A stretch of DNA of 64,000 nt from Paenibacillus larvae subsp. larvae (GTDB taxonomy: Bacteria; Bacillota; Bacilli; Paenibacillales; NBRC-103111), in NCBI RefSeq assembly GCF_002003265.1, contig NZ_CP019687.1, positions 3,787,501 through 3,851,500 on the forward strand, in the 5' to 3' direction. The translations under genes and the position numbers were made by a program. Positions 1 through 20,077 of this stretch are shown here, one piece after another; position 1 is the first letter of the stretch, and the number at the start of each line of letters is the position of its first letter. The notes under the pieces are model-generated. The model did no database searches, was not told the origin of the DNA, and saw only the letters and a list, made by a program, of their open reading frames with translations.

Positions 1-1
1 G

Positions 2-3280: not shown

Positions 3281-3299
3281 TTATAAGAGAACATTATGC

Positions 3300-3329
3300 T
3301 TGACTTTTATAAAAGTAGAATGATATACT
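3300..3329 (+). promoter_or_regulatory. Promoter of the infC-rpmI-rplT operon
   Basis: TTGACT (3300-3305), 18-bp spacer, TATACT (3324-3329), about 20 bases after the preceding gene. It starts a 190-nt leader ending in an attenuator. Confidence 0.75.
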
Positions 3330-3335
3330 GTTCAA

Positions 3336-3482
3336 GTGACTGAAAACTAAGCAGAAGCGCCCGCTTCTCACCTGACCGATTGAGGATCGGCTGGTTATAC
3401 GAGCTTGAATGAGAAGCATGCCTTATGGTATGTGAATTGGGATCGTTGAGGATGTGGGCTGTTTGCCTGCATCCTTTTTTGC
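3336..3482 (+). promoter_or_regulatory. L20-type ribosomal leader with attenuator terminator
   Basis: The long leader before infC ends in an intrinsic terminator: GGATGTGGGC (3450-3459), 5-nt loop, GCCTGCATCC (3465-3474), then T6. In Bacillus the corresponding leader binds ribosomal protein L20 and terminates transcription when L20 is in excess (known for the family). Here the position before infC-rpmI-rplT and the terminator are seen directly; the L20 binding fold is inferred. Confidence 0.75.
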
Positions 3483-3528
3483 TTCATATAGGTAAGTCAG
3501 AGTATCGTCATTAGCCTGGAGGTGGAGA

Positions 3529-4047
3529 ATTATTAGTAAGGACCATATGATTAACGGAGAGATTCGTGCAAGGGAAGTACGCCTGATCGGGGCGGACGGT
3601 GAGCAGCTTGGAATCAAGCCTACCCGCGAAGCTCTTCAAATTGCCGCTGATGCCAACTTGGATTTAGTCAACGTAGCTCCTACTGCTAAACCCCCGGTTT
3701 GCCGGATTATGGATTACGGTAAATACCGCTATGAAATGCAGAAGAAAGAGAAAGAAGCTCGGAAGAATCAGAAGGTTGTGGATCTCAAGGAGATCCGTCT
3801 GAGTGCTTCAATTGATGAGCATGATTTCCAAACCAAGCTGCGTAATGCGATTAAGTTCCTGAAGGATGGGGATAAGGTGAAAGCTTCCGTACGTTTCCGC
3901 GGACGGGAAATTGCCCATTCTGAAATTGGTAAAAAAGTACTTGAGCGCATGGCTGCTGAGACAGCAGAAATCGCTTCTGTAGAGCGTGCACCTAAACTTG
4001 AAGGCCGCAGCATGATTATGATTCTGGCCCCTAAGCCCAATAGCTGA
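3529..4047 (+). CDS. infC: Translation initiation factor IF-3
   Basis: 172 residues. It binds the 30S subunit, prevents premature 50S joining and proofreads the start codon. The N-domain ([22 protein letters not shown]), basic linker and C-domain ([15 protein letters not shown]...) are all present at family length. I place the start at ATT 3529: a GGAGGTGG ribosome binding site ends 3-6 nt upstream, and the next residues read I-S-K-D, matching the Bacillus subtilis IF-3 N-terminus. The first ATG (3547) has no ribosome binding site. ATT is the unusual infC start that allows IF-3 autoregulation. First gene of infC-rpmI-rplT, downstream of the L20-type leader. Confidence 0.95.
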
Positions 4048-4092
4048 CGGTTTGAAGTACCATGTATATTATTTTCTAGGAGGATTACTCAG

Positions 4093-4293
4093 ATGCCAAA
4101 AATGAAAACTCACAGCAGCCTTAAAGACCGTTTCAAAATTACCGGTACAGGCAAAGTGAAAAGATACAAAGCTTACAGAAACCACCTGCTTAGCCATAAA
4201 TCCGGACGTCAAAAACGCGTGCTTGAAGGTCAACCTATTATGGCTCCCGGCGACGTGAAACGCCTGAAACAAGGTTTGTCCAACCTGAAATAA
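4093..4293 (+). CDS. rpmI: 50S ribosomal protein L35
   Basis: 66 residues, of normal length and very basic, with the family pattern KMKTHSSLKDRFKITGTGKVKR near the N-terminus. It is a late-assembling protein of the large subunit. An AGGAGG sits 9 nt upstream of ATG. It lies 45 bases after infC and 39 before rplT, in the usual conserved order, and is co-transcribed from 3300. Confidence 0.97.
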   Translation: MPKMKTHSSLKDRFKITGTGKVKRYKAYRNHLLSHKSGRQKRVLEGQPIMAPGDVKRLKQGLSNLK

Positions 4294-4332
4294 AACCAGC
4301 ACATTTAATCATACCTTAGGAGGTTATTTATT

Positions 4333-4692
4333 ATGGCAAGAGTTAAGGGCGGGTTTATTACTCGTCGTCGTCATAAAAAAGTATTAAAACTGGCAAAAGG
4401 ATACTTCGGTTCCAAACACCGAATTTTTAAAACTGCGAATGCGCAAGTAATGAAATCCCTGCTGTATGCATACCGTGACCGTCGTCAACGGAAACGTGAT
4501 TTCCGCAAACTGTGGATCACTCGCATTAATGCTGCCGCTCGCATGAACGGTATTTCTTACAGCAAAATGATGCATGGCCTGAAGCTGGCAGGTATTGAAG
4601 TAAACCGTAAAATGCTGGCGGATCTGGCTGTAAATGACGCGAAAGCATTTGCAGATCTGGCTAACGCTGCAAAGCAAAAAGTGAATGCCTAA
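4333..4692 (+). CDS. rplT: 50S ribosomal protein L20
   Basis: 119 residues; N-terminal [16 protein letters not shown] with the long basic helix ([18 protein letters not shown]), then the globular RNA-binding domain. L20 binds 23S rRNA early in 50S assembly and represses its own operon through the leader at 3336-3482. AGGAGG ribosome binding site 9 nt upstream. Followed at once by a strong terminator. Confidence 0.97.
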
Positions 4693-4716
4693 TTGTTCCA
4701 TTTGGAACGATTTGAC

Positions 4717-4747
4717 CCGCTTTACCTTAGGGTAAGGCGGTTTTTTT
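4717..4747 (+). terminator. Terminator of the infC operon
   Basis: CCGCTTTACC (4717-4726), TTAG loop, GGTAAGGCGG (4731-4740) and T7. One T-A to G position is mismatched; otherwise a stable stem. Confidence 0.85.
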
Positions 4748-4759
4748 CAAGATTTTGTA

Positions 4760-4788
4760 TTGACTATTGGAAATGGCTTGCATATAAT
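4760..4788 (+). promoter_or_regulatory. Promoter of the ilv-leu operon
   Basis: TTGACT (4760-4765), exact 17-bp spacer, TATAAT (4783-4788). Transcription would start near 4795, just before the T-box leader. Confidence 0.85.
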
Positions 4789-4819
4789 AGTCTCTAAATC
4801 ATATTCTAAATTATCATAG

Positions 4820-5143
4820 TTATCTGACATCGGCTGTGATGAGGACGAAGTTGTTAGGGCTCTTATGAACAGAGAGCGGATGGAATTGCTGGAACCATCG
4901 CCTTAATCCCTTACGAACGAGCTCACCTCGGAGCTGTTTTTCTGAAAGGCAGGGGTGCGATTCCTTGCTTATTAGGGAAAAACGGATTGGCACACGTTAC
5001 CGTGCTATAGCGTTCAATCGTTGAAGTTGAACCTATAGAGGCTGATTACCGTAAGGTATTTGGCAAATGAGGGTGGTACCACGGAAAAGATAACCTTTTT
5101 CGTCCCGCGAACACTAGAAGTACGGGATGAAAAAGGTTTTTTT
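4820..5143 (+). promoter_or_regulatory. T-box leader (probably leucine tRNA) upstream of ilvB
   Basis: A T-box riboswitch binds an uncharged tRNA and lets transcription proceed when the amino acid is scarce. Visible parts: Stem I with GATGAGGACGAAG near its base; the antiterminator core TGGTACCACGG (5074-5084), whose GGTACC region meets the tRNA acceptor end; and a long terminator stem CCTTTTTCGTCCCG (5094-5107) with CGGGATGAAAAAGG (5123-5136) plus T7. A CTC leucine codon (4922-4924), followed by A as in other T-boxes, is the best specifier candidate, as known for the Bacillus subtilis ilv-leu operon. The specifier is inferred; the rest is seen. Confidence 0.9.
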
Positions 5144-5180
5144 ATTTTGCCGCACTTGATATTTCGGGAGGAGGATTCGC

Positions 5181-6926
5181 ATGAAAGTTGAAACAACACC
5201 ACAACGATCCAAAGAAGAACTGATGGAGAAATTTCAGAAGCCGGAACTGATTACTGGTTCGGAAATTCTGCTTCGAAGCCTGGTCCTCGAAGGTGTCGAA
5301 TGCGTCTTCGGGTACCCGGGAGGATCTGTGCTTTACATTTACGATGCCATGCACGGATTCAAAGATTTTGATCACCTGCTGACCCGTCACGAACAAGGAG
5401 CCATTCATGCTGCAGACGGATATGCCAGATCCACCGGAAAAGTAGGCGTGTGTATCGCTACCTCCGGTCCCGGGGCAACCAATCTGGTCACAGGTATTGC
5501 TACGGCTTATATGGATTCGGTGCCGCTTGTTGTCATAACCGGGAACGTGGCAACGAACTTTATCGGAACGGATGCCTTCCAGGAAGCGGATATTACGGGC
5601 ATTACGATGCCGATTACCAAGCATAATTATCTGGTCCGTGATGTAAATGATCTGCCTAGAATCATTCATGAAGCATTCCACATCGCTTCCACCGGACGTA
5701 AGGGGCCAGTTCTTATCGATATTCCCAAAGATGTATCGGCGCAGCAGGCAGTATTTCATCCGGCAGGCGGAATTAACATTCGTGGATACAATCCGACGGT
5801 ACACCCCAATAAGCTGCAAGTGGAGCGTCTGCTTAAAGCCATTGAGGAATCAGAACGTCCGGTTATCATCGCAGGCGGCGGTGTAGTTTATGCGGACGCG
5901 GCAGATCAGCTGATAGAATTTGTAGAGAAGACAAGGATTCCTGTTACGACAACTTTGCTCGGGCTTGGCGGTTTCCCAAGTGCTCATGACTTATGGATGG
6001 GCATGCCGGGAATGCATGGAACTTACACAGCCAATAATGCTATCCAAAACGCTGATCTTCTGATCTCTATAGGCTCGCGCTTTGACGATAGGGTGACAAT
6101 GAAACTGGATGGTTTTGCACCGAAAGCGAAAAAGATTGCCCACATTGATATTGATCCTGCCGAAATAGGAAAGAACGTAAAGACAGACATTCCTTGCGTC
6201 GGGGATATTAAAACAGTTTTAGAACACGCCAATCAGAAAGCCATGCCTGCCCGGTCCGACGTCTGGATCAAGCAAATACAGGAAAACAAGAAAAACTATC
6301 CCTTGAAATACAAGGATTCGGATAAAGAACTTAAACCTCAGTATGTGATCGGAATGATCAACGAAACCACGAAAGGTGAAGCCATCGTAACAACGGATGT
6401 CGGACAGCATCAAATGTGGGTGGCGCAGTTCTACAAATTCCAGCATCCGCGTTCCATGATTACTTCCGGGGGCCTTGGCACAATGGGATATGGCTTCCCG
6501 TCAGCTATAGGGGCGCAAATTGGAAATAAAGACAAAATGGTGATCTCGATCAATGGGGATGGCGGAATGCAGATGTGCTCCCAGGAGCTTGCAATATGTG
6601 CCATCAACAATATTCCCGTTAAGATTGTCGTAATCAATAACCGGGTGCTGGGTATGGTGAGACAGTGGCAGGAACTGATCTATGGCAGCCGGTACAGCCA
6701 CATTGATCTGGAAGGAAGCCCGGATTTCGTGAAACTGGCAGAGGCTTATGGAGTCAAGGGACTCCGTGCTGCGAACAAAGAAGAGGCGCACCAGGTTTGG
6801 CAAGAGGCAATGAATACACCCGGGCCGGTCCTTGTAGAGTTTGTAGTGAGCAAGCACGAAAATGTGTACCCGATGGTTACTCAAGGCTCTACGATTAGCG
6901 AAATGATGATGGGAGATTCGGAATAA
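5181..6926 (+). CDS. ilvB: Acetolactate synthase, large catalytic subunit
   Basis: 581 residues. A thiamine-diphosphate enzyme condensing two pyruvates (to valine and leucine) or pyruvate with 2-ketobutyrate (to isoleucine). It has the N-terminal pyrimidine-binding domain with catalytic Glu71 in RHEQGA, a central FAD-binding domain, and a C-terminal pyrophosphate domain with NGDGGMQMCSQEL ... INN binding Mg-ThDP. Length is normal plus a short N-terminal extension. GGGAGGAGG ribosome binding site upstream of ATG. Its TAA overlaps the ilvN ATG by one base, so the subunits are translationally coupled. First gene after the T-box. Confidence 0.97.
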   Translation: MKVETTPQRSKEELMEKFQKPELITGSEILLRSLVLEGVECVFGYPGGSVLYIYDAMHGFKDFDHLLTRHEQGAIHAADGYARSTGKVGVCIATSGPGATNLVTGIATAYMDSVPLVVITGNVATNFIGTDAFQEADITGITMPITKHNYLVRDVNDLPRIIHEAFHIASTGRKGPVLIDIPKDVSAQQAVFHPAGGINIRGYNPTVHPNKLQVERLLKAIEESERPVIIAGGGVVYADAADQLIEFVEKTRIPVTTTLLGLGGFPSAHDLWMGMPGMHGTYTANNAIQNADLLISIGSRFDDRVTMKLDGFAPKAKKIAHIDIDPAEIGKNVKTDIPCVGDIKTVLEHANQKAMPARSDVWIKQIQENKKNYPLKYKDSDKELKPQYVIGMINETTKGEAIVTTDVGQHQMWVAQFYKFQHPRSMITSGGLGTMGYGFPSAIGAQIGNKDKMVISINGDGGMQMCSQELAICAINNIPVKIVVINNRVLGMVRQWQELIYGSRYSHIDLEGSPDFVKLAEAYGVKGLRAANKEEAHQVWQEAMNTPGPVLVEFVVSKHENVYPMVTQGSTISEMMMGDSE

Positions 6927-7417
6927 TGATGAAACGGCATACGATCTCAATTTTAGTCAACAATCAGCCAGGAGTCCTGCAGCGAGTTTCCGGCCTGTTT
7001 GGCCGCCGGGGATTCAACATTGAAAGCATCACAGTGGGAGAATCTGAAGAAATCGGACTTTCCCGGATGGTTGTAGTGGCGAATGGCGATGATACTACCT
7101 TAGAACAGATCTCCAAGCAGCTTTATAAGCTGGTGGATGTTATCAAAGTAGTTGATCTCAGTTCCAATCCGATGGTCGCCAGGGAGCTTGCCCTCTTGAA
7201 GGTATATGCAGAGCCGGCTGCACGGCCGGAAATTCTGGGGGTTGTGGAAACGTTCCGTGCGGCTGTTGTAGATATAGGTCCTAATTCTATGATTATTCAG
7301 GTCGTTGGAGATTCGGAAAAAATTGATGCCATGGCGGAATTGCTTCGCCCTTACGGAATACGTGAATTAAGCCGTACCGGAGCTACAGCTATGATTCGCG
7401 GATTGGCCAAACATTAG
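6926..7417 (+). CDS. ilvN: Acetolactate synthase, small regulatory subunit
   Basis: 163 residues, the usual length. The N-terminal ACT domain (HTISILVNNQPGVLQRVSGLFGRRGFNIESITVG) binds valine for feedback inhibition, and the C-terminal half (ALLKVYAEPAARPEIL...VGDSEKIDAM) is the second conserved domain. Two ATG codons are adjacent; the first overlaps the ilvB stop. It forms the holoenzyme with IlvB. A 232-base gap without a clear terminator separates it from ilvC. Confidence 0.96.
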   Translation: MMKRHTISILVNNQPGVLQRVSGLFGRRGFNIESITVGESEEIGLSRMVVVANGDDTTLEQISKQLYKLVDVIKVVDLSSNPMVARELALLKVYAEPAARPEILGVVETFRAAVVDIGPNSMIIQVVGDSEKIDAMAELLRPYGIRELSRTGATAMIRGLAKH

Positions 7418-7586
7418 TCATTTCACGAAAAATGCACAGGTAAAAGATCCGGCTCGAAAGAAACGGTTCGAAATGTTCATTTTTACAGAGGTGAATATTT
7501 CCTAAAAGCAATATGTGAACATATGTACACCCTTGAGCGGGGATTTGAACGTTTCTCCTTCTTCCATGCAATATTGAAGACGCTGA

Positions 7587-8639
<1,053 letters not shown>

Positions 8640-8673
8640 GTGAAAACAGAACAATATAGAAGGAGGGGACAGG

Positions 8674-10221
8674 ATGAGGAAAATCTATGTATTTGATACC
8701 ACATTGCGGGATGGTGAACAATCACCCGGCGTTAACCTCAATACTCAGGAAAAGGTGGGAATCGGCCTCCAGCTCGAAAAGCTGGGCGTAGATCGGATCG
8801 AAGCAGGATTTCCTGCAGCTTCCCTAGGCGACCTGGAAGGTGTGGCAGCAGTGGCTAAAGCGGTCCGTAACGCTTCGATCATCGGACTGTCCCGTTCCAG
8901 GGAACAGGATATTGACACAGTAAGGGAAGCCCTGCGTGATGCACAGGACCCTTGCATACATGTATTTTTGGCCACTTCCCCCATTCATCGTCAGTATAAA
9001 TTGCGCATGGATAAGAAGCAGGTGTTGGAAACAGCTGAGGCGGCCATCCGTTATGCGAAGAAATATTTCAGCAAGATTGAGTTCTCTCCGGAGGATGCCG
9101 GACGGACTGAACTTGATTTTCTTTGTGAAGTTACGGAAATGGCGATTCGGGCAGGCGCGACGGTTGTGAATATTCCGGATACGGTTGGTTATATGAGCCC
9201 GGCAGAGTTCGGACATATATTCGCCACTCTGAGGGCACAGGTTTCGGGCATTGATAAGATCCAGCTTAGCGCACATTGCCATAACGATCTGGGTATGGCA
9301 ACGGCTAACGCCCTGGCAGCCATTATGAACGGGGCTGACCAGATCGAAGGAACGATCAATGGTATCGGCGAACGGGCGGGAAATACCTCACTGGAAGAAG
9401 TGGCCATGGCTCTGGAGACCCGGCAGGATCTGTATCAAGCCAAGACTTCCCTCGTGCTGAATGAAATTTACCGGACCAGCCGTCTAGTCAGCCGGTTGAC
9501 GGGTATGGCGGTACCCGGGAATAAAGCAATCGTGGGAGCCAACGCTTTCGCTCACGAATCAGGGATTCACCAGGACGGCATGCTAAAGGAAAAAACGACT
9601 TATGAAATCATGTCGCCTGAAACGATCGGGTTAAAAGAAAGCAAGCTTGTAATCGGTAAACATTCCGGCCGTCATGCGTTCCGCGAAAAACTCGTGGATC
9701 TGGGCTATGTACTGAACGAGGATCAGTTGAATACGGCATTTGCCAAATTTAAAAAGCTTGCCGATAAGAAGAAGAATGTACTGGATGAAGACATCCGGGC
9801 TATTATCGATGAGAAATTGATTCAGGTTCCCGAAGTGTTCGTTCTGGATACGATGCAAGTTTCCTATGGGAACCAGTCGGTGCCTACCGCTACAGTTCGT
9901 ATTCTGACGCAAGACGGCGGTAGACTAGAGGAAGCGGCAGTCGGGAACGGTTCGGTCGATGCTATTTATAATGCGATTGATAAGGCCACCCGGGAAGAAG
10001 TGGAGCTTGCCGATTACAAGATCCATTCTGTATCCCAGGGACAGGATGCGCTTGGAGAAGTGCATGTTATGCTGAAGCAATACGGCTATTCTGTTCTGGG
10101 GCGCGGGGTTAGCACTGATATTCTGGAAGCGAGTGCCAAAGCTTATATTGATGCAGTGAACCGGCTGTTTGATAAACGCAGTTCCCATAAAACGGATCGC
10201 AGCAACGTCACACTAATTTAA
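8674..10221 (+). CDS. leuA: 2-isopropylmalate synthase
   Basis: 515 residues, full length. First committed step of leucine synthesis: 2-ketoisovalerate plus acetyl-CoA. The TIM-barrel domain begins with [16 protein letters not shown] (residues 7-22). The metal-binding HCHNDLG is near residue 202, the HESGIHQDG loop follows, and the C-terminal leucine-sensing regulatory domain (after about 390) is intact. GAAGGAGGGG ribosome binding site. It ends the transcript with a strong terminator, so leuB, which usually follows directly, is cut off here by the bacteriocin cluster. Confidence 0.97.
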
Positions 10222-10243
10222 AATGATCCGTCTGTTCCCAATG

Positions 10244-10291
10244 AAAAACCTTTTGTTATCGGAGTGTAAATTCTGGGGCAAAAGGTTTTTT
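10244..10291 (+). terminator. Terminator after leuA
   Basis: AAAAACCTTTTG (10244-10255) pairs perfectly with CAAAAGGTTTTT (10279-10290) around a 23-nt loop, followed by T. It also faces the end of the convergent bacteriocin cluster. Confidence 0.8.
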
Positions 10292-10310
10292 GCTAAGTAG
10301 AAATGCTGTT

Positions 10311-10544
10311 TTAGATATTCAAATACAAGGCAATACTGCCTAAGAGATTAAGGATAAAGATCAGCAGAAAGAGAGACTTGGCGATTTTGTTTTGAACAGG
10401 TGCAAATACAAACAGATAAAGCCCTGCTAAACCAAACGTCAACAAAGGCAGTAAGAATTCACAAGTTAAAGAAATAAGGTAGCCAACGAAGAGAATAACA
10501 GGAATTCCTACAAGGTAAACATGATGTTTAAAATTGGATCCCAT
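10311..10544 (-). CDS. Small hydrophobic protein, probable circular-bacteriocin immunity (AcnF-like)
   Basis: 77 residues, strongly hydrophobic, with two to three membrane helices (GIPVILFVGYLISL, LLPLLTFGLAGLYLFVF, LFLLIFILNLLGSIAL) and basic residues at the ends. It is the last gene of the cluster. In amylocyclicin and related clusters (order acnBACDEF as I recall) the last small, cationic membrane protein is assigned to self-immunity. Position, size and character fit; no motif proves it. It starts 13 bases after the SpoIIM-like gene, with GGAGACAT acting as ribosome binding site. Confidence 0.75.
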   Translation of the reverse strand: MGSNFKHHVYLVGIPVILFVGYLISLTCEFLLPLLTFGLAGLYLFVFAPVQNKIAKSLFLLIFILNLLGSIALYLNI

Positions 10545-10556
10545 CGAAATGTCTCC

Positions 10557-11084
10557 TTATTTAAATAATGGAGTAACATAGATTTCTATTATGGATGCCG
10601 TCACTAACAAACAACCAATCAAAAGTGTCAATATCATCATATGTTTAAATAAGTCTAACAAGACTCCTTTTGTATTTGCAAAACATAATTTCCAAATCAT
10701 TTCTAAACTTATAAAACCGATAGAACCACTCAATAATAATGCTGGGATTTCAAAAATACCATGAGGCAAGAGAAGGAAACCGATTTGATACAAGGGCACT
10801 CCATTCTGGAGACTCTCTATAATAGACCCGCTTAAAATAAACCCGTTAGACATCAAGTAGAACATGGATAGGAGTCCGAAAGAAAAAAAACCGGAAGCCA
10901 TAAGAAGACAAACCGTGACGTTGTTTTTCAGCAGCTCCAGTACATTGGTTGATGATACATAAGGTGTAACGGAGAATCCCTCTTTCGAAAACAGGCCGAT
11001 AATAAAGCCGACAGCAAAAAAGATTATGGATGCCAGTATGGGTCCCTTACTCATTCTCAGTGAAACGGTTATAGTTTTAATCAT
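10557..11084 (-). CDS. SpoIIM/DUF95 family membrane protein of the circular bacteriocin cluster (AcnE-like)
   Basis: 175 residues, four to five membrane helices. It carries the SpoIIM/DUF95 signature LLPHGIFEIPALLLSGSIG in its second half. DUF95 proteins occur in essentially all circular bacteriocin clusters and are needed for maturation, export or immunity; the exact reaction is not settled. Its ATG overlaps the stop of the ABC ATPase gene by four bases (ATGA, 11081-11084), so the two are co-translated and probably act in one membrane complex. Confidence 0.85.
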   Translation of the reverse strand: MIKTITVSLRMSKGPILASIIFFAVGFIIGLFSKEGFSVTPYVSSTNVLELLKNNVTVCLLMASGFFSFGLLSMFYLMSNGFILSGSIIESLQNGVPLYQIGFLLLPHGIFEIPALLLSGSIGFISLEMIWKLCFANTKGVLLDLFKHMMILTLLIGCLLVTASIIEIYVTPLFK

Positions 11085-11782
11085 GAGTAAATGTTCTCAA
11101 TCAGCTGTTCCATATGGTTCAATGAGTATTCACAAGAACGAAACTCCCGAACAAATTCACCATCATGAATAACCCCGATTGTATCGCACAAAGAATGGGC
11201 AAGTTCCAACAAGTGAGTAGATAGAAGGACCGTATTTCCCCGGTCTACATACTCCTTTAATAATGTCCGGATTGCTTTACCGCTTATAAGGTCAACTCCT
11301 GTTAAAGGCTCGTCAAGAATCAAAACCTTCGGCTTATGAATTAAAGCGGACGCGATAGATAATTTTTGCTTCATTCCATGTGAATATGTTTTGATTAACT
11401 GATCGCCTTCATGAAATAAATGTAATTTTTGTAACATTTCATTAATATATACATTTGTATCTTTTGAGGGAACTTGAAACATTTCCCCTACAAAGCGCAA
11501 ATACTCCATACCTGTTAAGTATTCATAGAGAACAGCATGATCCGGAACAAATCCTATATTAGCAGATAGTTCATTTAACGAATGGCTTTGTTCATTTCCA
11601 TCAATGGATACGGTTCCTGCAGTAGGCTTAAGCAACCCCGAAATAATCTTCAAAGTTGTTGTCTTTCCCACACCATTTGTCCCAAGAAGCGCATAGGTGG
11701 ACCCTTTTTTTACTTCAAAAGAGATATCTTTCAAGACTACTTTGTGCCCATACGTTTTATGTAAATGTTTAATCTTAATCAT
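11081..11782 (-). CDS. ABC transporter ATP-binding protein of the circular bacteriocin cluster (AcnD-like)
   Basis: 233 residues from the chosen start. Walker A GTNGVGKTT, Q-loop, the signature region YSHGMKQKLSIASAL, Walker B VLILDEPLTG and the H-loop LLSTHLLEL are all present, so it is an active ATPase. The family exports or provides immunity to circular bacteriocins together with the SpoIIM-like and large membrane proteins. I take ATG 11782 rather than a frame start 18 bases upstream because GAAAGGAT lies at the right distance. This ATG overlaps the stop of the upstream gene by eight bases. Confidence 0.9.
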   Translation of the reverse strand: MIKIKHLHKTYGHKVVLKDISFEVKKGSTYALLGTNGVGKTTTLKIISGLLKPTAGTVSIDGNEQSHSLNELSANIGFVPDHAVLYEYLTGMEYLRFVGEMFQVPSKDTNVYINEMLQKLHLFHEGDQLIKTYSHGMKQKLSIASALIHKPKVLILDEPLTGVDLISGKAIRTLLKEYVDRGNTVLLSTHLLELAHSLCDTIGVIHDGEFVREFRSCEYSLNHMEQLIENIYS

Positions 11783-13439
11783 GATTGGCGATCCTTTCAA
11801 ACAAATTGATTTTCTTTAAATAAAAGAACATGATAACATAATTGAGCAATGTAAAAAGAATAAATCCAGCTGATGCGGTATTCAATACAGTTGTTTGTAT
11901 TTCAGATTTGGTATACATCATATAAGCCGTTACACCAGTGATTTGCAATGATACAATAAAAATAAATCCACTGTACAAATGAGTAAAGGTTTGGGCTTTC
12001 CCTGATTCTCCGATCTCATAGTCATGTTCCCAATTTTTCTTAGGATATAGGGCAGTGCTGGAAATATAGACGAGACCGTATAAGAAACCAGATGTTGCAA
12101 ACATAACAAACAGACAAATGATCAGTGGCACCGAACACTTAAAGAGAAAAGCCAACAATACAGACATGAACACAGAAAATAGCAGAACGATTAAATTATA
12201 AATAGAAATTTTCGGCATCACCATTTGCCATGCATTTTTTATATTCGGTTGAAAAAGATGCTGATTTTTCAGCTCACCGTCTACTGACAGAACCATTTTC
12301 AGTGCATCACCAACCAATAGATAGGTGAAATGGGCAATCAGTACAGAAAAAGAGACAATAGCAATTTCTGGATAAGTGGAAAATTGGTTTTGGATGAAGG
12401 GGATCCCAAAACCTAAAAATACCATTAGCGCATAAAGCATATTACCAAAATTTCTGGCAAAAAATCCATGAATTCTTAACAAAAATAGGATATCTTTTTG
12501 GAAAATAGCACGGAATATTTTGGATTGATCATTCAACCTAATCTTAGGTGCACGGGTAACATCACTAATACCGGTATACGGGATCAAATCTAGTCTTTTT
12601 AAGGTGGCAGACCAGATATAGAACAGGATCATGATCACAAAGATTCCCACTGTGAAAGATAGAAACCCTGTCAACATATCGTGCTCATGATTGGCTATCC
12701 ATACATATGGGGTGCAAGTAAATATTTGTTTGAAAAGCGGCGATGCAAGAAAGTATTTGATGTTCTGAACCATATTTCCGTCTGACAGTACATAATACAC
12801 CCCATACCCCATAAGTAGAGGAACCGTCAGACTGATGACAAACAGGACGGATGAAATAATTTTGGAATGTGAAAGCTGCCTCCAAACATGGTTCATTATG
12901 TAAGGAATATAAGAAAAGAGCATGGCAAATAAACAAGTAAAGGTGAAATAAATGAATCCTATAAGAAAGATAAACAATGGGTGAACAGTTGTCTGTTGAA
13001 TGGCAAAGAGTATTATAAAAACCGGAAACACAAAGAGGTACCATACACATATACTTTTGATAACAGATTTTAATACAAAGGCAGAAAAAAGTTGTAAAAA
13101 CCGGACTTCTTCTAATTGATGGATGAATTTCCGCGTATCCAGCAAGAAAATTTTTTTATTTTTTTTGAAAAAGTCCATCGTCCAGAGCAGCTGTTCGAGA
13201 AAGATCGCAATGAGTATAAACTGACTCCAGGTATTTAGCGGCAGCTCAATGAAACGTGTTCCCAACATAACAACAAGAGTTAACAAACATAAATAAACTA
13301 GTAAAAGGGCAATTCCAATACTATACCATGTTCTTCTTCCAACTGTTTCAAGATTCCAGTCATCTTTCATTTTACGAATGGATGATAACGAATTATGTTT
13401 AATAAGAGAAATGATCCGCTTTACTATTCTGTTCATCAT
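11775..13439 (-). CDS. Large multi-spanning membrane protein of the circular bacteriocin cluster (AcnC-like)
   Basis: 554 residues, with a basic N-terminus and about 12 hydrophobic segments spread along the length; no soluble catalytic domain. In this cluster class a membrane protein of this size directly follows the precursor gene and is thought to take part in circularisation and/or export. The function of the family is not biochemically defined. The start has AAGGAATG upstream. It is coupled to the ATPase gene by an eight-base overlap. AT-rich and clearly different in base composition from the flanking leu genes. Confidence 0.8.
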   Translation of the reverse strand: MMNRIVKRIISLIKHNSLSSIRKMKDDWNLETVGRRTWYSIGIALLLVYLCLLTLVVMLGTRFIELPLNTWSQFILIAIFLEQLLWTMDFFKKNKKIFLLDTRKFIHQLEEVRFLQLFSAFVLKSVIKSICVWYLFVFPVFIILFAIQQTTVHPLFIFLIGFIYFTFTCLFAMLFSYIPYIMNHVWRQLSHSKIISSVLFVISLTVPLLMGYGVYYVLSDGNMVQNIKYFLASPLFKQIFTCTPYVWIANHEHDMLTGFLSFTVGIFVIMILFYIWSATLKRLDLIPYTGISDVTRAPKIRLNDQSKIFRAIFQKDILFLLRIHGFFARNFGNMLYALMVFLGFGIPFIQNQFSTYPEIAIVSFSVLIAHFTYLLVGDALKMVLSVDGELKNQHLFQPNIKNAWQMVMPKISIYNLIVLLFSVFMSVLLAFLFKCSVPLIICLFVMFATSGFLYGLVYISSTALYPKKNWEHDYEIGESGKAQTFTHLYSGFIFIVSLQITGVTAYMMYTKSEIQTTVLNTASAGFILFTLLNYVIMFFYLKKINLFERIANHD

Positions 13440-13516
13440 TTACTTCATTCCTTGTTTGTAGTATGGGGGAGAGCCTTTTATGCTTTTATACAGAAAGTAT
13501 TACTTTATGTTTCAGT

Positions 13517-13852
13517 TTACCAAGCAGCAGCGTATTTTTTACCATATTTTTTGATCATTGTTTTAGCTGTTGCAACAATTGCATAAGAAACAGCACCGGC
13601 TCCTGTTACAATACCAATTAAAGAGATAATAGATGCAATTGTTGAAGCTGCATCAATGATATCAATTGCTTTTTTCGCTGCAGCAGTTGAGATGCCTAAA
13701 GTAGAGGCTAGCTCAGCATTGCCTGAAAAGCCCTGAACAGGTGTAACACCCAGATTTGTACCAGTTAATAGAAACATATATAACAATGAAGTGCTCACTA
13801 GGCCCAAACCAAGAAGTACAATGACTTTTTTGTTAGACTTTACCAAATTCAT
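13517..13852 (-). CDS. Circular bacteriocin precursor, amylocyclicin-like
   Basis: 111 residues: a 47-residue leader and a 64-residue mature part that starts with LASTLGISTAAAKKAID and ends with KKYGKKYAAAW. From memory this mature part equals amylocyclicin of Bacillus velezensis FZB42 except for V instead of I at mature position 41. In the family, leader removal is followed by a head-to-tail bond (here Leu1-Trp64). The product is a compact four-helix, cationic peptide that permeabilises Gram-positive membranes. The helical alanine/isoleucine-rich stretches and the C-terminal lysine cluster are visible. Start supported by GGAGATG. Preceded by an AcnB-like and followed by an AcnC-like gene. 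Confidence 0.93.
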   Translation of the reverse strand: MNLVKSNKKVIVLLGLGLVSTSLLYMFLLTGTNLGVTPVQGFSGNAELASTLGISTAAAKKAIDIIDAASTIASIISLIGIVTGAGAVSYAIVATAKTMIKKYGKKYAAAW

Positions 13853-13898
13853 TTCCCAACATCTCCAATCTCATAAATTTATAATAAAATCCAGTACC

Positions 13899-14459
13899 TT
13901 ACTCTCCCCCTGTACTGAATGTTATTAACAATATTTTGAGTATAAGAAAACTAAAGGCCAGGACAACTCTTTTATTTTTATTCAGATCCGTTAACTTGCC
14001 ACTTAAAAAATATAGAATAATAGTGGATAGAATAATAAATGGATCGAACAAATAGAGTCCGCTGCCTTTTAATGAATAGATTAAACTAGGATCATTCGTA
14101 AACACATTAACGGTTGCCATAACAAGCATTTTAAAAGAAGTAACTAAAGTGGTAAGCGTGTAAAGCAGGAGGTAAGTTTTTTTCGGTTTTTTTGAGCCCA
14201 AAAAAAAACCAATCAGATAAAGAAAAAAACCACCGATTAAAAGTTCAATGAAAATGGCAAGAACAGAGAATCCTTGGATGGCAATCACAACAATTTGGAT
14301 AATATCGCCATCTATATCTGGAAGGTCATGTTGTTTGGCAGAGGAGTGATAGATTTCGAGTACTTTTTCATAAATACTTACTTGAAATAGAATGGCAGAA
14401 AGCAAAATGGAGATAACAGCTAAGAAAACCAGTTTTTTGTTACTTATTTTCTCAATCAT
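13899..14459 (-). CDS. Membrane protein, first gene of the circular bacteriocin operon (AcnB-like)
   Basis: 186 residues from ATG 14459, with about five membrane helices (VFLAVISILLSAILF, VVIAIQGFSVLAIFIELLIGGFFLYLIGFFLG, and others). In amylocyclicin-type clusters a hydrophobic protein precedes the precursor gene; its role in maturation is not defined. I prefer this ATG because AAGGAGG (14474-14480) precedes it, though at a long 14-nt spacing. An ATG at 14504 would add 15 residues but has no ribosome binding site. Confidence 0.7.
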   Translation of the reverse strand: MIEKISNKKLVFLAVISILLSAILFQVSIYEKVLEIYHSSAKQHDLPDIDGDIIQIVVIAIQGFSVLAIFIELLIGGFFLYLIGFFLGSKKPKKTYLLLYTLTTLVTSFKMLVMATVNVFTNDPSLIYSLKGSGLYLFDPFIILSTIILYFLSGKLTDLNKNKRVVLAFSFLILKILLITFSTGGE

Positions 14460-14580
14460 ATCATTAAGTTTTACCTCCTTATTAAGGAAATCGATGTAAA
14501 ACATTTGCGGCTAAATCGTTAATTAAAGCGAAATGAGTTTCTGAATTTATATATTTTTACATTACAGGTATATATTTGTA

Positions 14581-14609
14581 ATTCTAAGGTGCTAAAACGG
14601 ATTAGTCAA
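14581..14609 (-). promoter_or_regulatory. Promoter of the circular bacteriocin operon
   Basis: Read on the minus strand: TTGACT (14609-14604), exact 17-bp spacer, TAGAAT (14586-14581). Transcription would start near 14574 and leave a leader of about 115 nt. The -35 box touches the palindrome at 14610-14649. Confidence 0.75.
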
Positions 14610-14649
14610 TATCCAGATGAAATATGTCTTAAGACATCTCATCAGGATA
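14610..14649. promoter_or_regulatory. 40-bp interrupted palindrome next to the bacteriocin promoter
   Basis: Outer arms TATCC (14610-14614) and GGATA (14645-14649), middle arms GATGA (14616-14620) and TCATC (14639-14643), and a perfect 14-bp centre ATGTCTTAAGACAT (14624-14637). It directly abuts the -35 box of the bacteriocin promoter, the usual place for an activator or repressor. It could also form a hairpin at the end of a transcript; no T-tract follows. Confidence 0.6.
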
Positions 14650-14810
14650 CTTAACCTTAATCTGGTCTTTAGGATATTCCGGGAGAAAAAGTTCTTTTAA
14701 AGGATTTATAGGTTTATCCTATAAAAGTAATAGCTTTTATATCTTAGTCAACTAATGGCAAATATGATACAACTAGATATAGCGAAGTAACAATGGGGAG
14801 TGAACGAGAG

Positions 14811-15899
14811 ATGGCAGACGCAAAAAAAATAGCAATCCTTGCAGGAGACGGTATTGGCCCTGAAGTGGTAGCAGAAGCCGAGAAAGTGCTAAAGCGTACC
14901 GAAGAACTATTCGGATACCGGTTTGAAACGGAACACGGCATTTTTGGTGGCATTGCCATTGACAAGAAAGGAACTCCGCTGCCTCAGGATACATTGAAGC
15001 TGTGTCAACAAGCGGATGCCGTGCTTCTGGGGGCGGTTGGCGGGACCAAATGGGACAACAATCCCAAAGATCTGCGACCCGAAACAGGACTGCTCGGAAT
15101 CCGTAAAGCCCTCGGTCTGTTTTCCAATATTCGACCGGCTGTTGTATTTGATTGCTTGAAGGAAGCCTCTACCTTAAAGCCTGAAGTGCTGGAGGGAACC
15201 GACCTGATCGTGGTCCGGGAACTTACAGGCGGAATATATTTCGGAGAGAAGCTCCGCCGCAATTCAGAGAACGGTCAGGAGGCTGTCGACACTTGCGTCT
15301 ACAACGTTCAGGAGGTTGAGCGCATCGTGCGCCAAGCCTTTAACATCGCACGCACTCGCCGGAAGAAGCTCGCTTCCGTAGATAAGGCCAATGTACTTGA
15401 AACCTCGCGCCTTTGGAGGGAGACCGTGAATCGGGTTTCAGCCGACTACCCGGATGTTGAACTTGAGCATGTACTCGTCGACAACTGCGCGATGCAGTTG
15501 CTTCGCCGCCCGGCCAGCTTTGATGTCATTGTTACCGAGAATATGTTTGGTGACATTTTGAGTGATGAAGCGGCCATGCTCACCGGTTCAATCGGAATGC
15601 TCTCCTCAGCCTCTCTCGGGGAAGGAAGCTTTGGCCTCTACGAACCCGTTCACGGATCGGCCCCCGATATCGCAGGGCAAGGTATTGCTAATCCGATTGC
15701 CACCATTTTATCGGTAGCTCTGATGTTCCGTCTGACCTTCGGGTATCACGAAGCAGCGGACTGCATCGAGCGCGCGGTTAAAGAAATACTCGATGCCGGA
15801 CACCGTACAGGCGATATTGCCATAGACCGCTCTAAAGCATTAGGAACGGCAAAGATGGGTGATCTGATTATCGGGGTGATGAAAAAACATAACAAATAG
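14811..15899 (+). CDS. leuB: 3-isopropylmalate dehydrogenase
   Basis: 362 residues. It oxidises and decarboxylates 3-isopropylmalate using NAD+. Markers are [12 protein letters not shown] near the N-terminus, the substrate-binding [14 protein letters not shown] and [10 protein letters not shown], the metal-binding aspartates in DNCAMQL and [12 protein letters not shown], and [16 protein letters not shown] choose ATG 14811, not the ATG at 14793, because the GGGGAGTGA between them is the ribosome binding site. It is separated from leuA by the bacteriocin cluster and must have its own promoter, of which I see no strong example. leuC and leuD do not follow. Confidence 0.95.
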
Positions 15900-15913
15900 G
15901 GGAAAGAAGAAGG

Positions 15914-15945
15914 CCTTAAAGTCTCCACCACTTTAAGGTCTTTTT
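15914..15945 (+). terminator. Terminator after leuB
   Basis: CCTTAAAGT (15914-15922) and ACTTTAAGG (15930-15938), 7-nt loop, then a T-rich tract. Confidence 0.85.
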
Positions 15946-16015
15946 CTTTTAAAACCCTTATACCAACTAGATTTAAATATTAGAATAACCATTTTCAACC
16001 AAAATTATGGACGAT

Positions 16016-16030
16016 TTATAATAATTATAA
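16016..16030. promoter_or_regulatory. Perfect Per box upstream of the peroxiredoxin
   Basis: TTATAATAATTATAA is an exact match to the 15-bp PerR consensus TTATAATNATTATAA known from Bacillus. It lies about 20 bp upstream of the -35 box of the peroxiredoxin promoter. PerR would repress here until metal-catalysed oxidation by peroxide releases it. Fur or Zur sites are related in sequence, but this one fits PerR best. Confidence 0.75.
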
Positions 16031-16049
16031 TATAATACTTGATTTAATA

Positions 16050-16078
16050 TTGACTTTCTTCTAGGCAAATGATACGAT
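16050..16078 (+). promoter_or_regulatory. Promoter of the peroxiredoxin gene
   Basis: TTGACT (16050-16055), 17-bp spacer, TACGAT (16073-16078); start of transcription near 16085, 39 bases before the coding region. Confidence 0.65.
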
Positions 16079-16123
16079 CGAAACAGATTGAAATGAACCA
16101 TTTTTGAAGGAGGAATTGTACAA

Positions 16124-16669
16124 ATGGCTGAACGTTTAGTAGGCAAAAAAGCTCCAGATTTTACTATGGAAACTGCACACGGTGATGCTACCGGCTTTGG
16201 TAAAGTATCCCTTTCCGACTATAAAGGCAAGTGGCTGGTATTCTTCTTCTACCCACTTGATTTCACTTTCGTTTGTCCGACTGAGATCACTGCACTCAGT
16301 GATGCGGCTGCTCAATTCAGAGATCTGAATACGGAAATTCTGGCTGTTTCAACAGACAGCATTCATTCCCATAAAGCTTGGATCAATGCTCCAAAGAATG
16401 ACGGGGGTCTTGGAAAAGTGAACTTCCCGATCGCTTCCGATATTACTAAGTCCGTAGCACGCGATTATGGTGTCCTGATTGAAGAGGAAGGCGTAGCCCT
16501 TCGCGGACTGTTCATCATCAACCCTGAAGGTGAGCTGAAATATCAAGTGGTGAACCATAATGATGTAGGCCGCAGTGTAGAAGAAACACTTCGCGTTCTG
16601 CAAGCCCTGCAATCTGGTGGTCTTTGCCCAATGAACTGGAAACCGGGGGACAAAAACCTGGAAGTCTAA
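16124..16669 (+). CDS. 2-Cys peroxiredoxin (AhpC/Prx1 class)
   Basis: 181 residues. A cytosolic thiol peroxidase reducing hydrogen peroxide and organic peroxides. The peroxidatic Cys51 is in FTFVCPTE with its conserved Pro/Thr environment, and the resolving Cys168 is in GGLCPMNW; the C-terminal tail ends KPGDKNLEV. AAGGAGGAATT ribosome binding site. No ahpF reductase follows, so thioredoxin is the likely electron donor. Single gene between its own promoter (with Per box) and a terminator. It could be called ahpC, but Paenibacillus often has more than one such protein, so I leave the symbol blank. Confidence 0.93.
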   Translation: MAERLVGKKAPDFTMETAHGDATGFGKVSLSDYKGKWLVFFFYPLDFTFVCPTEITALSDAAAQFRDLNTEILAVSTDSIHSHKAWINAPKNDGGLGKVNFPIASDITKSVARDYGVLIEEEGVALRGLFIINPEGELKYQVVNHNDVGRSVEETLRVLQALQSGGLCPMNWKPGDKNLEV

Positions 16670-16720
16670 GCTTGTAAGGGATAGGCTGATTTACGTACAG
16701 GACGTATCCTTCATTTCTAT

Positions 16721-16756
16721 AACCTTTTTTCTGCTGCGGCAGGGAAGAGGTTTTTT
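16721..16756 (+). terminator. Terminator after the peroxiredoxin gene
   Basis: AACCTTTTTTCTGC (16721-16734) pairs, with G-T wobbles, with GCAGGGAAGAGG (16739-16750); T6 follows. Confidence 0.75.
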
Positions 16757-16813
16757 CATCTTCTTCTTCCTGATATACTCAATATAAGAGGCAACTAGGA
16801 AGGGGAGTTCTTC

Positions 16814-17209
16814 ATGATGGATATGCCCGCGCATTTGCTTTATACTCCTGATCATTTATGGGTAAGAATCGACGGTAACCGGGCCATGATTGGTATTACG
16901 GAATACGCACAGGAAGAGTTGGGTATTGTGGTTTTTGCGGAGCTTCCTCCCCTTGGGGAGAAGGTTCGGACAGGCCTCTATATGAGCATGGTGGAATCCG
17001 CAAAACAGGATATGGATATTATCGCCCCGGTATCCGGTACGGTTGTACTGGTCAATCAGGCTTTGGCGTCCAATCCAATGCATATTAACACCTCTCCCTA
17101 CGAATATGGATGGATACTGGTAATTGAAATGAGCCGTCCGGAAGAGATGGAAAAATTATGGGATGCAAAAACCTACCAGGAAGCTTATGCGACCTGTAGA
17201 GGGGAATAA
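16814..17209 (+). CDS. GcvH-like lipoyl-domain protein (second copy)
   Basis: 131 residues, the size of glycine cleavage H protein. It has the H-protein start LLYTPDHLWVRIDG and a lipoyl hairpin, VESAKQDMDIIAPVSG, with the modifiable lysine at position 64. The canonical gcvH of this genome lies at 30654. This copy diverges after the lysine (QDMD instead of TVSD) and has a tail of different sequence. It is monocistronic, far from gcvT/gcvP. It could carry lipoate for the glycine system, act in lipoate relay to other complexes, or serve an unknown GcvH-like function. Confidence 0.8.
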   Translation: MMDMPAHLLYTPDHLWVRIDGNRAMIGITEYAQEELGIVVFAELPPLGEKVRTGLYMSMVESAKQDMDIIAPVSGTVVLVNQALASNPMHINTSPYEYGWILVIEMSRPEEMEKLWDAKTYQEAYATCRGE

Positions 17210-17210
17210 A

Positions 17211-17248
17211 AAAATCTGGCGAGGAAGAATCCTTTGCCAGATTTTTTT
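17211..17248. terminator. Bidirectional terminator between the gcvH-like and GH15 genes
   Basis: AAAATCTGGC (17211-17220) and GCCAGATTTT (17236-17245), with A- and T-rich flanks. It overlaps the stop codon of the convergent GH15 gene. Confidence 0.85.
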
Positions 17249-19217
17249 ATTTTCCTATAGCTTTCAGTTCTTTATATTTAGCTGCATATTTGTTTACGGT
17301 TAATACATAAGTAGCATGGGACCAGGTTAAAGGGGCTACTGAAACGGGGGCCCCGCTATAAGGGTCCAGCTGTTCAGGCAGGATGCCGCTTTGCATGGCA
17401 TTGCGGACTACCCATTCCAGAGTTTCTTTTGGTTTGTCTAACTCACTCAGATTTGAAGCCATTTCAGTCTGCCATTCCGCCATCCATAGAGTACAGATTA
17501 TCCACGGATTTCCGGGCACCTGCTGGATATCTGACGAACGCTGGAAGTAGTAATCGTTATAATAGCGGCTGATCCCCCCGATTGGAGTTTGAATAGAAAG
17601 TCCCCGCAGGTTAGCTTCCATCGTCCGAATTACACGATCATCATCTGGGGGAAGTACGCCAAAGGCAAAAATGCCGTATACCGAGCTTTCCAGTGTCCGA
17701 TCTTTATGCCATTTTCCATACTCCTTAAATAATCCACGTATAAATCTGCCTGTCTGAACATCCCAAAGATGCTCCAGAATTCCGCAGCGGATTTTTTCGG
17801 CTGTTCCGTGATAACGGGCCCTTCGTTCCTCATCCCCGAAAAGGCTGCAAAAGTTACCTGCAGCTATTAGCCCGCCATATACGGCTGAGGCCGTAAAAGT
17901 ATAAATCCCGTACCGTTCTTCCCATAAATCGTAACTTGGCTTGGGCAAATAAAGACTTTCTTCTATATAACTGCATAAAAAACGGGCGGCTGGCCGAATA
18001 AGGGTACTGTATAACGACTGGGCCAGTTCCAGATTCTCATGTTGAAGATAGTCTTGCCAAAGGGCGAACAAAACCAGTCCCGTTTCATCTTCCTGAATCG
18101 GAAGCTGTTCTTCCCCTCCGTGTACATAAGGATGCCAGCTGGAACCAACAGTTCCGTCCGGATTATACTTATGGAGTAAATAGCCCTCCCGGGAAAGCGC
18201 CCTGGCGCAGAACCGGTAGAACGGTTCCATCATGCCGGAATACCCTGCTTTGGACATGGCATGAGCTATAAGAGCACCATCTCTTGGCCACATGTAGCTG
18301 TAATGATCCCGGTTGCTTTGCATAATGTCGGAGTCATTGGCAGCTATGATAGCTCCGTTTACATCGGTTTGGGACCGTACGATCAGCAAACTTTGCTTAT
18401 AAAGACGGATTATGTCATCGGTCAAATCGGCAAAGTACCGGTCGGATTTATTAACCCATCGCTGCCAGTACACCTGCACCCGGTTCAAAAGTTTGTCCGG
18501 TCCGCTCTCACGGACATATTGATCCAGAGAGACGACCTCCTCCAGATTTTGGCCTGCTGTCATCCAATAATATAGTTTTCCTGATCCGTGAGAAGCCAAT
18601 TTTAAACGGAAACTGATGGTACTGTCTACAGAGCCTTGAGCTATGGGGTTCCCCATTAAGTATCCGTCCTCTGCATCCCTCCACGTGCCTTCCGCATGAT
18701 AAAACCGTTTAACTCCTGTTGTATATTGGTAAATGCCCTCGCATCCGGTTGTTCCGTTAAACATGAAATATCTGTTTTTTTTATAGTGGAAAATCGTGTG
18801 GTTGGAAGGATAGTAGGCTGCGGTGTCCCCGACTTCCGTTTCGTTAATTTGTAAATCCTGGTTAAAAAAGAAATGGATCTCTCTTTCCTGTTCCCGGTGG
18901 TTATAAAGAGCAACACGTTTAAAATAAATATGCTCTCTTTGATGAACAGCGTCATTCATCAGGACGGTAATTCCGAGGCCGTGATGTACGGCCTTTACTT
19001 CCGTAACCAGTGAATCCTCCAAATATCCGTTATGAATGTCCCAGGTATCATCGCTAAGCCAACTGAAGGTTTCGTCTACCCGCAGGCCGATCCGGCATTG
19101 GTACCCGCCTACATGGTTTAATTGTCCAACATAAGGATAGTACAGGTCCCGGATATAGGCATGCTGATCCAAATTAATTAGCATCTTACCATTACCAACC
19201 ACGAGATGTCTTGGCAT
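17247..19217 (-). CDS. Glycoside hydrolase family 15 protein (glucoamylase/trehalase-like)
   Basis: 656 residues from ATG 19217. An N-terminal beta-sandwich domain (MPRHLVVGNGKMLINLDQHAYIRDL onwards) precedes the (alpha/alpha)6 catalytic domain. SYMWPRDGALIAHAM is the substrate-site hallmark, and acidic residues in the segments around LWEERYGIY and WSHATYV are candidate catalytic sites. Family members release glucose from maltodextrins or split trehalose; the substrate here is not decidable. There is no signal peptide, so it acts in the cytoplasm. The start is set by AAGGAAG 9 nt upstream; an upstream TTG (19238) lacks a site. Single gene. Confidence 0.88.
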   Translation of the reverse strand: MPRHLVVGNGKMLINLDQHAYIRDLYYPYVGQLNHVGGYQCRIGLRVDETFSWLSDDTWDIHNGYLEDSLVTEVKAVHHGLGITVLMNDAVHQREHIYFKRVALYNHREQEREIHFFFNQDLQINETEVGDTAAYYPSNHTIFHYKKNRYFMFNGTTGCEGIYQYTTGVKRFYHAEGTWRDAEDGYLMGNPIAQGSVDSTISFRLKLASHGSGKLYYWMTAGQNLEEVVSLDQYVRESGPDKLLNRVQVYWQRWVNKSDRYFADLTDDIIRLYKQSLLIVRSQTDVNGAIIAANDSDIMQSNRDHYSYMWPRDGALIAHAMSKAGYSGMMEPFYRFCARALSREGYLLHKYNPDGTVGSSWHPYVHGGEEQLPIQEDETGLVLFALWQDYLQHENLELAQSLYSTLIRPAARFLCSYIEESLYLPKPSYDLWEERYGIYTFTASAVYGGLIAAGNFCSLFGDEERRARYHGTAEKIRCGILEHLWDVQTGRFIRGLFKEYGKWHKDRTLESSVYGIFAFGVLPPDDDRVIRTMEANLRGLSIQTPIGGISRYYNDYYFQRSSDIQQVPGNPWIICTLWMAEWQTEMASNLSELDKPKETLEWVVRNAMQSGILPEQLDPYSGAPVSVAPLTWSHATYVLTVNKYAAKYKELKAIGK

Positions 19218-19263
19218 AACCATCACTTCCTTAAGCAAAATTCATTGACTATTTTTATTGCCT

Positions 19264-19464
19264 TCATAGAGGACGGGAAGTTGTAAGCTGAACCAGCCTG
19301 TCATAAGGGTTGGTAGAGTGAAGAATAGCGACATAATCCTGTTTAGGGATACCGGAGTAATATTCAGTCCGTCCGGTATGATATTGCACCATCATCTCTT
19401 TGGTTTGCTCGTCATAAGAAATGAAAGCAATTTGTTTGGAGCAGATGGATATGATCTGGGACAA
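19264..19464 (-). CDS. KTSC-domain-like small protein
   Basis: 66 residues. The pattern I-x-x-I-x-Y-D then L/M-x-V-x-F/Y-x-x-G-x-x-Y-x-Y-x-x-V/I-P (here FISYDEQTKEMMVQYHTGRTEYYSGIP) is that of the KTSC domain, a small fold found alone or attached to RNA-related enzymes. Function unknown. The gene has an AGGAGG-type site upstream and lies just before the GH15 gene in the same direction, 46 bases apart, so the two may share a transcript. Confidence 0.65.
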   Translation of the reverse strand: MSQIISICSKQIAFISYDEQTKEMMVQYHTGRTEYYSGIPKQDYVAILHSTNPYDRLVQLTTSRPL

Positions 19465-19651
19465 ATCTGATACCTCCTGTCAATGTTAAATTACTTCAAT
19501 GTATGAAGAAAAAACAGGGGTTAGAAGGATTTACAGGAGGAATTTTCTTTTGTATTTCAGAATACATTTGGTGTAAAATAATCACATTCGAAACTATCGT
19601 GGCTATTTATCTAGTTGCAAGCCGTTTCTTTTTACATGGGAGGGGATAATA

Positions 19652-20077
19652 ATGAGTTTTTGCTGTGGAGCCAGTATGATTGGGACGAAAGGCACCCTTA
19701 AACATATCCGAACTAATATCCATAATGTCCCTATTTTGTTTTGCCCGGTTTGCCATCGTGTAGAAGTACATTATTTAGTAGAAAATGAATACGAGATTCT
19801 GGCGGAATATGCTCATGGTGATGGGGCGAGCGATGTGGATTTCGTACAATATATAGAAATGAAAGATGACGTTTTCTTATATGAAAATTGCGTCAATCAT
19901 GAACAGCAAGAGCCTTTGGAAGTGGTACAAACCCAAATCGATATGGCTTTGGACTTGCTCACGGTAAGTAAAGCGTTGGATGATGGTCAGTGGGAGGGTC
20001 AGCTCAAAAAGCGCCTTCAAACATTAAGTAACCGGAAAAGTAAGCTTCTAAAGAAAAAAGCTGCTAATGGATTTTAA
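19652..20077 (+). CDS. Small zinc-ribbon protein of unknown function
   Basis: 141 residues. Cys4-Cys5 near the N-terminus and CPVC (residues 32-35) make a likely zinc knuckle reminiscent of YgiT-type ribbons. The middle is acidic; the C-terminal 60 residues are helical and basic (LKKRLQTLSNRKSKLLKKK). GGGAGGGGAT ribosome binding site. It is followed by its own terminator. No partner toxin gene is adjacent, so a toxin-antitoxin role is not supported. Confidence 0.7.
   Translation: MSFCCGASMIGTKGTLKHIRTNIHNVPILFCPVCHRVEVHYLVENEYEILAEYAHGDGASDVDFVQYIEMKDDVFLYENCVNHEQQEPLEVVQTQIDMALDLLTVSKALDDGQWEGQLKKRLQTLSNRKSKLLKKKAANGF

Follow-up and report, generated by a model that had tools for sequence, protein, structure and literature searches.

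The chromosome of Paenibacillus larvae subsp. larvae carries, with a probability that we put at about 0.9, a complete operon of the acnBACDEF type, which places its product in the amylocyclicin subfamily of the class IId (head-to-tail cyclized) bacteriocins. The operon lies within the 64,000-nucleotide stretch analyzed here (positions 3,787,501 to 3,851,500 of contig NZ_CP019687.1), referred to below as the window. The cluster itself is ordinary and its product class, gene set, and presence in this species are on record, since an amylocyclicin-like cluster in P. larvae has already been reported (PMC7132975) and the genes have counterparts in the Bacillus acn operon. What is unusual, more than this cluster, is the number and the decay of its sister loci in one chromosome. 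The operon also presents a case of a bacteriocin product that stayed fixed across a divergence that nearly saturated synonymous sites, so that the identity of the product is not to be read as a sign of recent transfer.

Gene content and predicted product

Six intact open reading frames (ORFs) were called at window positions 10311 to 14459 on the minus strand, in the transcription order acnB-A-C-D-E-F, with the following features.

13899..14459, minus strand: acnB-like first gene of the operon, encoding a 186-aa membrane protein of the Yip1 family (PF04893, 28.7 bits, just above the cutoff), 47% identical to the Bacillus velezensis homologue in the same position
13517..13852, minus strand: acnA-like gene for the 111-aa precursor (PF09221, 74.4 bits; TIGR03651, 70 bits), 80% identical to Bacillus precursors
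13712..13852, minus strand: 47-aa leader of the precursor, with the C-terminal residues SGNAE, identical at 26/47 positions in the B. velezensis alignment
13520..13711, minus strand: 64-aa core peptide (LAST...AAAW) with predicted joining of Leu1 and Trp64, identical to the amylocyclicin core at 63/64 positions
11775..13439, minus strand: acnC-like gene for a 554-aa multipass membrane protein, a putative maturation/cyclization factor, 52% identical to B. velezensis AcnC
11081..11782, minus strand: acnD-like gene for an ABC transporter ATPase (PF00005, 7.6e-33), 73.5% identical to B. velezensis AcnD
10557..11084, minus strand: acnE-like gene for a SpoIIM/DUF95 protein (PF01944, 1.7e-20), 54% identical to B. 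velezensis AcnE
10311..10544, minus strand: acnF-like gene for a 77-aa cationic hydrophobic protein (DUF5970; PF19395, 8.7e-42), a putative immunity protein, 55% identical to B. velezensis AcnF

The first-pass annotation of this DNA had proposed a complete amylocyclicin-like cluster in Paenibacillus, arranged in the order acnBACDEF. Both proposals were borne out: all six ORFs are in place, family matches were obtained, and tblastn searches found the six proteins to be collinear with the Bacillus acn operon, with collinear homologues of all six in five Bacillaceae loci. The genes had also been described as overlapping, which holds for acnC/acnD (8 nt) and acnD/acnE (4 nt, the ATG of acnE lying over the stop codon of acnD as ATGA), and is limited to these two junctions because E/F, B/A, and A/C are separated by gaps of 12, 46, and 77 nt, respectively. 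The precursor covers the full profiles of PF09221 (1 to 67 of 67) and TIGR03651 (1 to 73 of 73), for which the cutoffs are 23.6 and 30.7 bits, and these matches are far beyond chance. The 554-aa AcnC-like protein gave no family match in Pfam or NCBIfam. The minimal set for a circular bacteriocin is a precursor with a SpoIIM/DUF95 protein and an ABC transporter (PMC8659200), and here the precursor gene is found in one operon with genes matching PF01944 (SpoIIM/DUF95) and PF00005 (ABC), as in class IId.

Alignment of the 111-aa precursor to that of B. velezensis reproduced the previously proposed division into a 47-residue leader and a 64-residue mature part, and the sole difference between the two cores is Val41 in place of Ile41, the single substitution that had been named beforehand. 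The predicted average mass of the cyclic P. larvae peptide is 6367.5 Da, with a monoisotopic value of 6363.59, which is 18 Da below the average mass of the linear form (6385.5 Da) and 14 Da below that of amylocyclicin; the same computation gave 6381.5 Da for the Bacillus core, in agreement with the mass of 6382 Da published for amylocyclicin (PMC7132975). Among solved structures, the best sequence match is the circular enterocin NKR-5-3B (2mp8; E value, 1e-15). Class IId peptides are expected to form a saposin-like bundle of four or five helices; an AlphaFold model of the core gave four helices, at a confidence too low for the model to serve as support (pLDDT of 49).

Gene content, order, homology, divergence, conservation pattern, and copy number are observed here, and for cleavage, cyclization, export, immunity, and activity we draw on amylocyclicin, leucocyclicin Q, and AS-48. 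By analogy with these systems, the 111-aa precursor would be cleaved after Glu47, and Leu1 and Trp64 of the core would be linked by a peptide bond, with AcnC as the likely maturation factor. The roles assigned to AcnB and AcnC are conjectural in the reference system as well. When the SpoIIM protein of the leucocyclicin Q system is removed, the cyclized product stays in the cell (PMC7132975), which puts cyclization ahead of export. The AcnD ATPase, together with AcnE (SpoIIM/DUF95), would export the ring of about 6367.5 Da on average, the producer may be protected by AcnF together with AcnE, and the cationic ring (net charge of +5) would permeabilize the membranes of competing Gram-positive bacteria.

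Divergence of the cluster and its setting at leuA-leuB

The near-identity of the product had been taken in the first-pass annotation as a sign of recent horizontal transfer, and this part of the annotation did not hold. A recent transfer from Bacillus, with the product near-identical for that reason, would be in keeping with the 63 of 64 identical core residues and with a cluster that is AT-rich and missing from relatives, but we consider it barely credible. Such an event should leave high DNA identity to the donor from one end of the cluster to the other, at synonymous sites as well, whereas the nucleotide identity of the six genes to those of B. velezensis is 56 to 73% per gene. Identity of the five accessory proteins to their B. 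velezensis counterparts is 47% (AcnB), 52% (AcnC), 74% (AcnD), 54% (AcnE), and 55% (AcnF), and that of the leader is 26/47. We further compared the third bases of codons that specify the same four-fold-degenerate residue in both species. These differ at 48% of sites in the core and at 64 to 83% in the other genes, which is close to saturation, and comparisons with three species revealed no significant difference in four-fold divergence between the core and the rest (Fisher p values of 0.06, 1.0, and 0.17). In addition, a search of 84,980 species, one genome per species, recovered seven precursor loci, in B. velezensis, Bacillus siamensis, Bacillus nakamurai, Bacillus sp. ISL-51, Heyndrickxia coagulans, a Clostridium, and a Ruminococcus metagenome-assembled genome, and no precursor closer than 80% identity; a recent transfer is refuted for every donor in the set that was searched.

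Since synonymous sites are near saturation in the core and in the rest of the cluster alike, the near-identity of the product is best read as the result of purifying selection and not of a short time, with only the core having stayed fixed. The values for the core are a pN of 0.021 and a pS of 0.54, and those for acnB, acnC, acnE, and acnF are a pN of about 0.3. The same pattern is seen with H. coagulans, where 59/64 residues of the core and 11/47 of the leader are kept and the machinery is 33 to 56% identical.

An older horizontal transfer, either old in itself or from an unsampled donor, is well supported as the probable origin of the operon by its absence from relatives, its AT-richness, and its antisense position between leuA and leuB. 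The precursor had no match in 59 relatives. The GC content of the cluster is 35.3%, versus 43.9% for the window, and GC3 is 0.24 to 0.39, versus 0.52 to 0.54 in leuA and leuB; hardly any 4.15-kb stretch of the window is richer in AT than the cluster (among 240 sliding stretches, a single one has a lower GC content, and this one shares sequence with the cluster), a composition that is partly expected for genes of membrane proteins. The source of the operon, which probably entered the P. larvae lineage at the leuA-leuB junction, would be Bacillaceae-like, with the transfer either long past or from a donor that has not been sampled. Carriage on a plasmid or phage was considered and rejected, there being no match in a plasmid collection (DNA and protein) and no phage match (protein). 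At the ends of the cluster, no flanking direct repeats or inserted element were found, only short matches of the kind expected by chance. The features of this junction are as follows.

8674..10221, plus strand: leuA (2-isopropylmalate synthase), flanking ORF on the opposite strand, with orthologues in relatives that are 72 to 83% identical
10243..10292, both strands: long hairpin located between leuA and the cluster and carrying U-tracts on either strand, a probable bidirectional terminator (plus strand, -22.8 kcal/mol, z -4.7; minus strand, -12.9, z -2.0)
14581..14609, minus strand: candidate promoter TTGACT-17-TAGAAT upstream of acnB, the best site of the scan (10/12 matches)
14823..15899, plus strand: leuB (3-isopropylmalate dehydrogenase), flanking ORF on the opposite strand, with orthologues in relatives that are 83 to 88% identical

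The leuA-leuB junction varies in length among relatives, from 80 bp to 5.8 kb, and an aminotransferase gene is often found there. This variability marks it as a tolerant site, and the notion of a strict leu operon split by an insertion was rejected as a general statement. The hairpin would separate the leuA and acn transcription units. The candidate acnB promoter comes from a scan whose total of 15 sites, against 19 expected, is not above chance, and a perfect 14-bp palindrome, ATGTCTTAAGACAT, lies just upstream of it at window positions 14624 to 14637 as a possible operator. We also noticed that the hairpin resembling a terminator, along with 4.6 kb of genes in antisense, parts leuB from leuA (window 10221-10311 and 14460-14822), and leuB should therefore need its own promoter; none was prominent in the scan. 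No Rfam family of riboswitch or leader RNA was found in window positions 1 to 20000.

Sister loci and the function of the operon

Six PF09221 loci above the cutoff are present on the chromosome, a single contig of 4,289,950 bases, and the total of circular-bacteriocin-type loci is about ten. Elsewhere, PF09221 counts were 0 to 3, mostly 0 or 1, over some 1,200 genome searches (overlapping sets of 399 genomes of the class, 398 of the phylum, and 395 of the order). An independent count of SpoIIM gave ten strong matches here, versus 1 to 5 in the other members of the family that were searched (97 genomes). Two of these ten matches resemble housekeeping genes, and the remainder map to bacteriocin-like loci. 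The loci, by chromosome position, are as follows.

C1, the window cluster: appears intact
C2, 2793 kb (2793413): PF09221 precursor above the cutoff; appears intact
C3, 3383 kb (3383395): PF09221 precursor above the cutoff; large membrane protein apparently split, SpoIIM gene with an in-frame stop
C4, 1245 kb (1244983): PF09221 precursor above the cutoff; SpoIIM gene frameshifted
C5, 3512 kb (3512161): PF09221 precursor above the cutoff; large membrane protein frameshifted
C6, 3686 kb (3685902): PF09221 precursor above the cutoff, with an AS-48-like core; appears intact
C7, 3973 kb: leader-poor 64-aa precursor (MFELIA.GIS...TIIDW) below the cutoff; ATPase frameshifted
C8, 3326.5 to 3330.2 kb: order B-A-C-E-D, with 182-aa, 108-aa, and 506-aa proteins, SpoIIM, and ABC; appears intact
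C9, 1195 kb: degraded near-copy of C7, with a 64-aa precursor below the cutoff; a remnant beside a CRISPR array
C10, 3365 to 3368 kb: 63-aa precursor (MSIAGLTAS...QAAIQF; PF09221, 16 bits); SpoIIM gene truncated

Each of the five further PF09221 precursors is accompanied by a large membrane protein, an ABC ATPase, and SpoIIM, with frameshifts or stops in three of the five sets. Of the large membrane proteins encoded at these other loci, only that of C4 is clearly homologous to AcnC (hhalign, 96%), and that of C6 weakly so (38%); the others are AcnC-like in size and position, and no sequence similarity was detected. The 108-aa precursor-like ORF of C8, ending in NNLDTLSKW, has weak matches to the precursors of Bacillus and of the window (E values of 3e-4 and 6e-4) and does not match the circular-bacteriocin profiles of Pfam or NCBIfam. 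A further broken circular-bacteriocin-like set, with a broken ATPase, adjoins C10. The CRISPR array near C9 has a spacer that matches seven P. larvae phage records over 37/37 bases, in the region of a recombination/single-stranded DNA-binding gene; Harrison, Paisley, and Bert are among these phages.

Roughly half of the loci carry frameshifts, stops, or truncations (should the assembly derive from PacBio reads alone, sequencing errors could account for some of the frameshifts, and less likely for the in-frame stop and the truncations), and every recognizable gene is open in about four loci, the window cluster included. On balance, we favor the reading that the P. larvae lineage hoards circular bacteriocins, with about ten loci and at least seven unlike precursors repeatedly gained and later decaying, the amylocyclicin operon being among the few kept whole and C8 perhaps representing a new precursor family. 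A honeybee pathogen with such an outlying count, many of the loci broken, would allow the role of these peptides in monopolizing the dead larva to be tested, as well as the gain and loss of bacteriocin repertoires.

In light of this, the operon might itself be intact and yet silent or nonfunctional, ageing toward decay like its neighbors in the same genome. At least five other circular-bacteriocin-type loci here have frameshifts, stops, or truncations, and the candidate acnB promoter has no backing from the scan statistics. Set against this, the six genes are open with their overlaps conserved, 98% of the core is conserved while synonymous sites are nearly saturated, and transcripts of sister loci have been reported for P. 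larvae (PMC3930689), and we regard a silent operon as unlikely. It is also conceivable that the operon is kept mainly as protection from the amylocyclicin of competing Bacillus and less for killing, as the core is shared with the Bacillus product and AcnE and AcnF could then shield against Bacillus competitors in the hive; a nearly invariant core would, however, be needless for immunity alone, which makes this very improbable. A functional antibiotic is plausible, judging from genes that are all open and a core pN far below pS.

Comparison with known systems

A search of the literature found no paper testing an amylocyclicin of P. larvae. Previous work credited P. larvae SAG 10367 with clusters of the amylocyclicin-like and uberolysin-like types and P. 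larvae ERIC_I with AS-48-like and uberolysin-like ones (PMC7132975, 2020), and two AS-48 peptides and circularin A/uberolysin were among the differentially expressed antibiotic-related genes in a P. larvae transcriptome (PMC3930689). By its published description, the SAG 10367 amylocyclicin-like cluster is of the same species and subfamily as the window cluster.

The window cluster resembles the amylocyclicin locus (acnBACDEF) of B. velezensis/amyloliquefaciens FZB42 in its six genes, their order and overlaps, the 64-aa core with Leu1 and Trp64 ends, and the DUF5970 protein. It differs in having Val41 for Ile41, a leader identical at 26/47 positions, and other proteins that are 47 to 74% identical, and, unlike the FZB42 locus, it lies antisense between leuA and leuB. 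The amylocyclicin-like cluster of Heyndrickxia (Bacillus) coagulans has the same gene set and a core identical to that of P. larvae at 59/64 positions, but it differs in its leader (11/47) and machinery (33 to 56% identity); the P. larvae operon is nearer to the Bacillus subtilis group than that of H. coagulans is (AcnC, 52% versus 36%). Enterocin NKR-5-3B is likewise a 64-residue circular bacteriocin of the same family, from another genus and with a core clearly diverged from that of P. larvae. Enterocin AS-48, which has 70 residues, shares the PF09221 family with the window precursor, but it is the core of locus C6 on the same chromosome, and not the window cluster, that AS-48 resembles.
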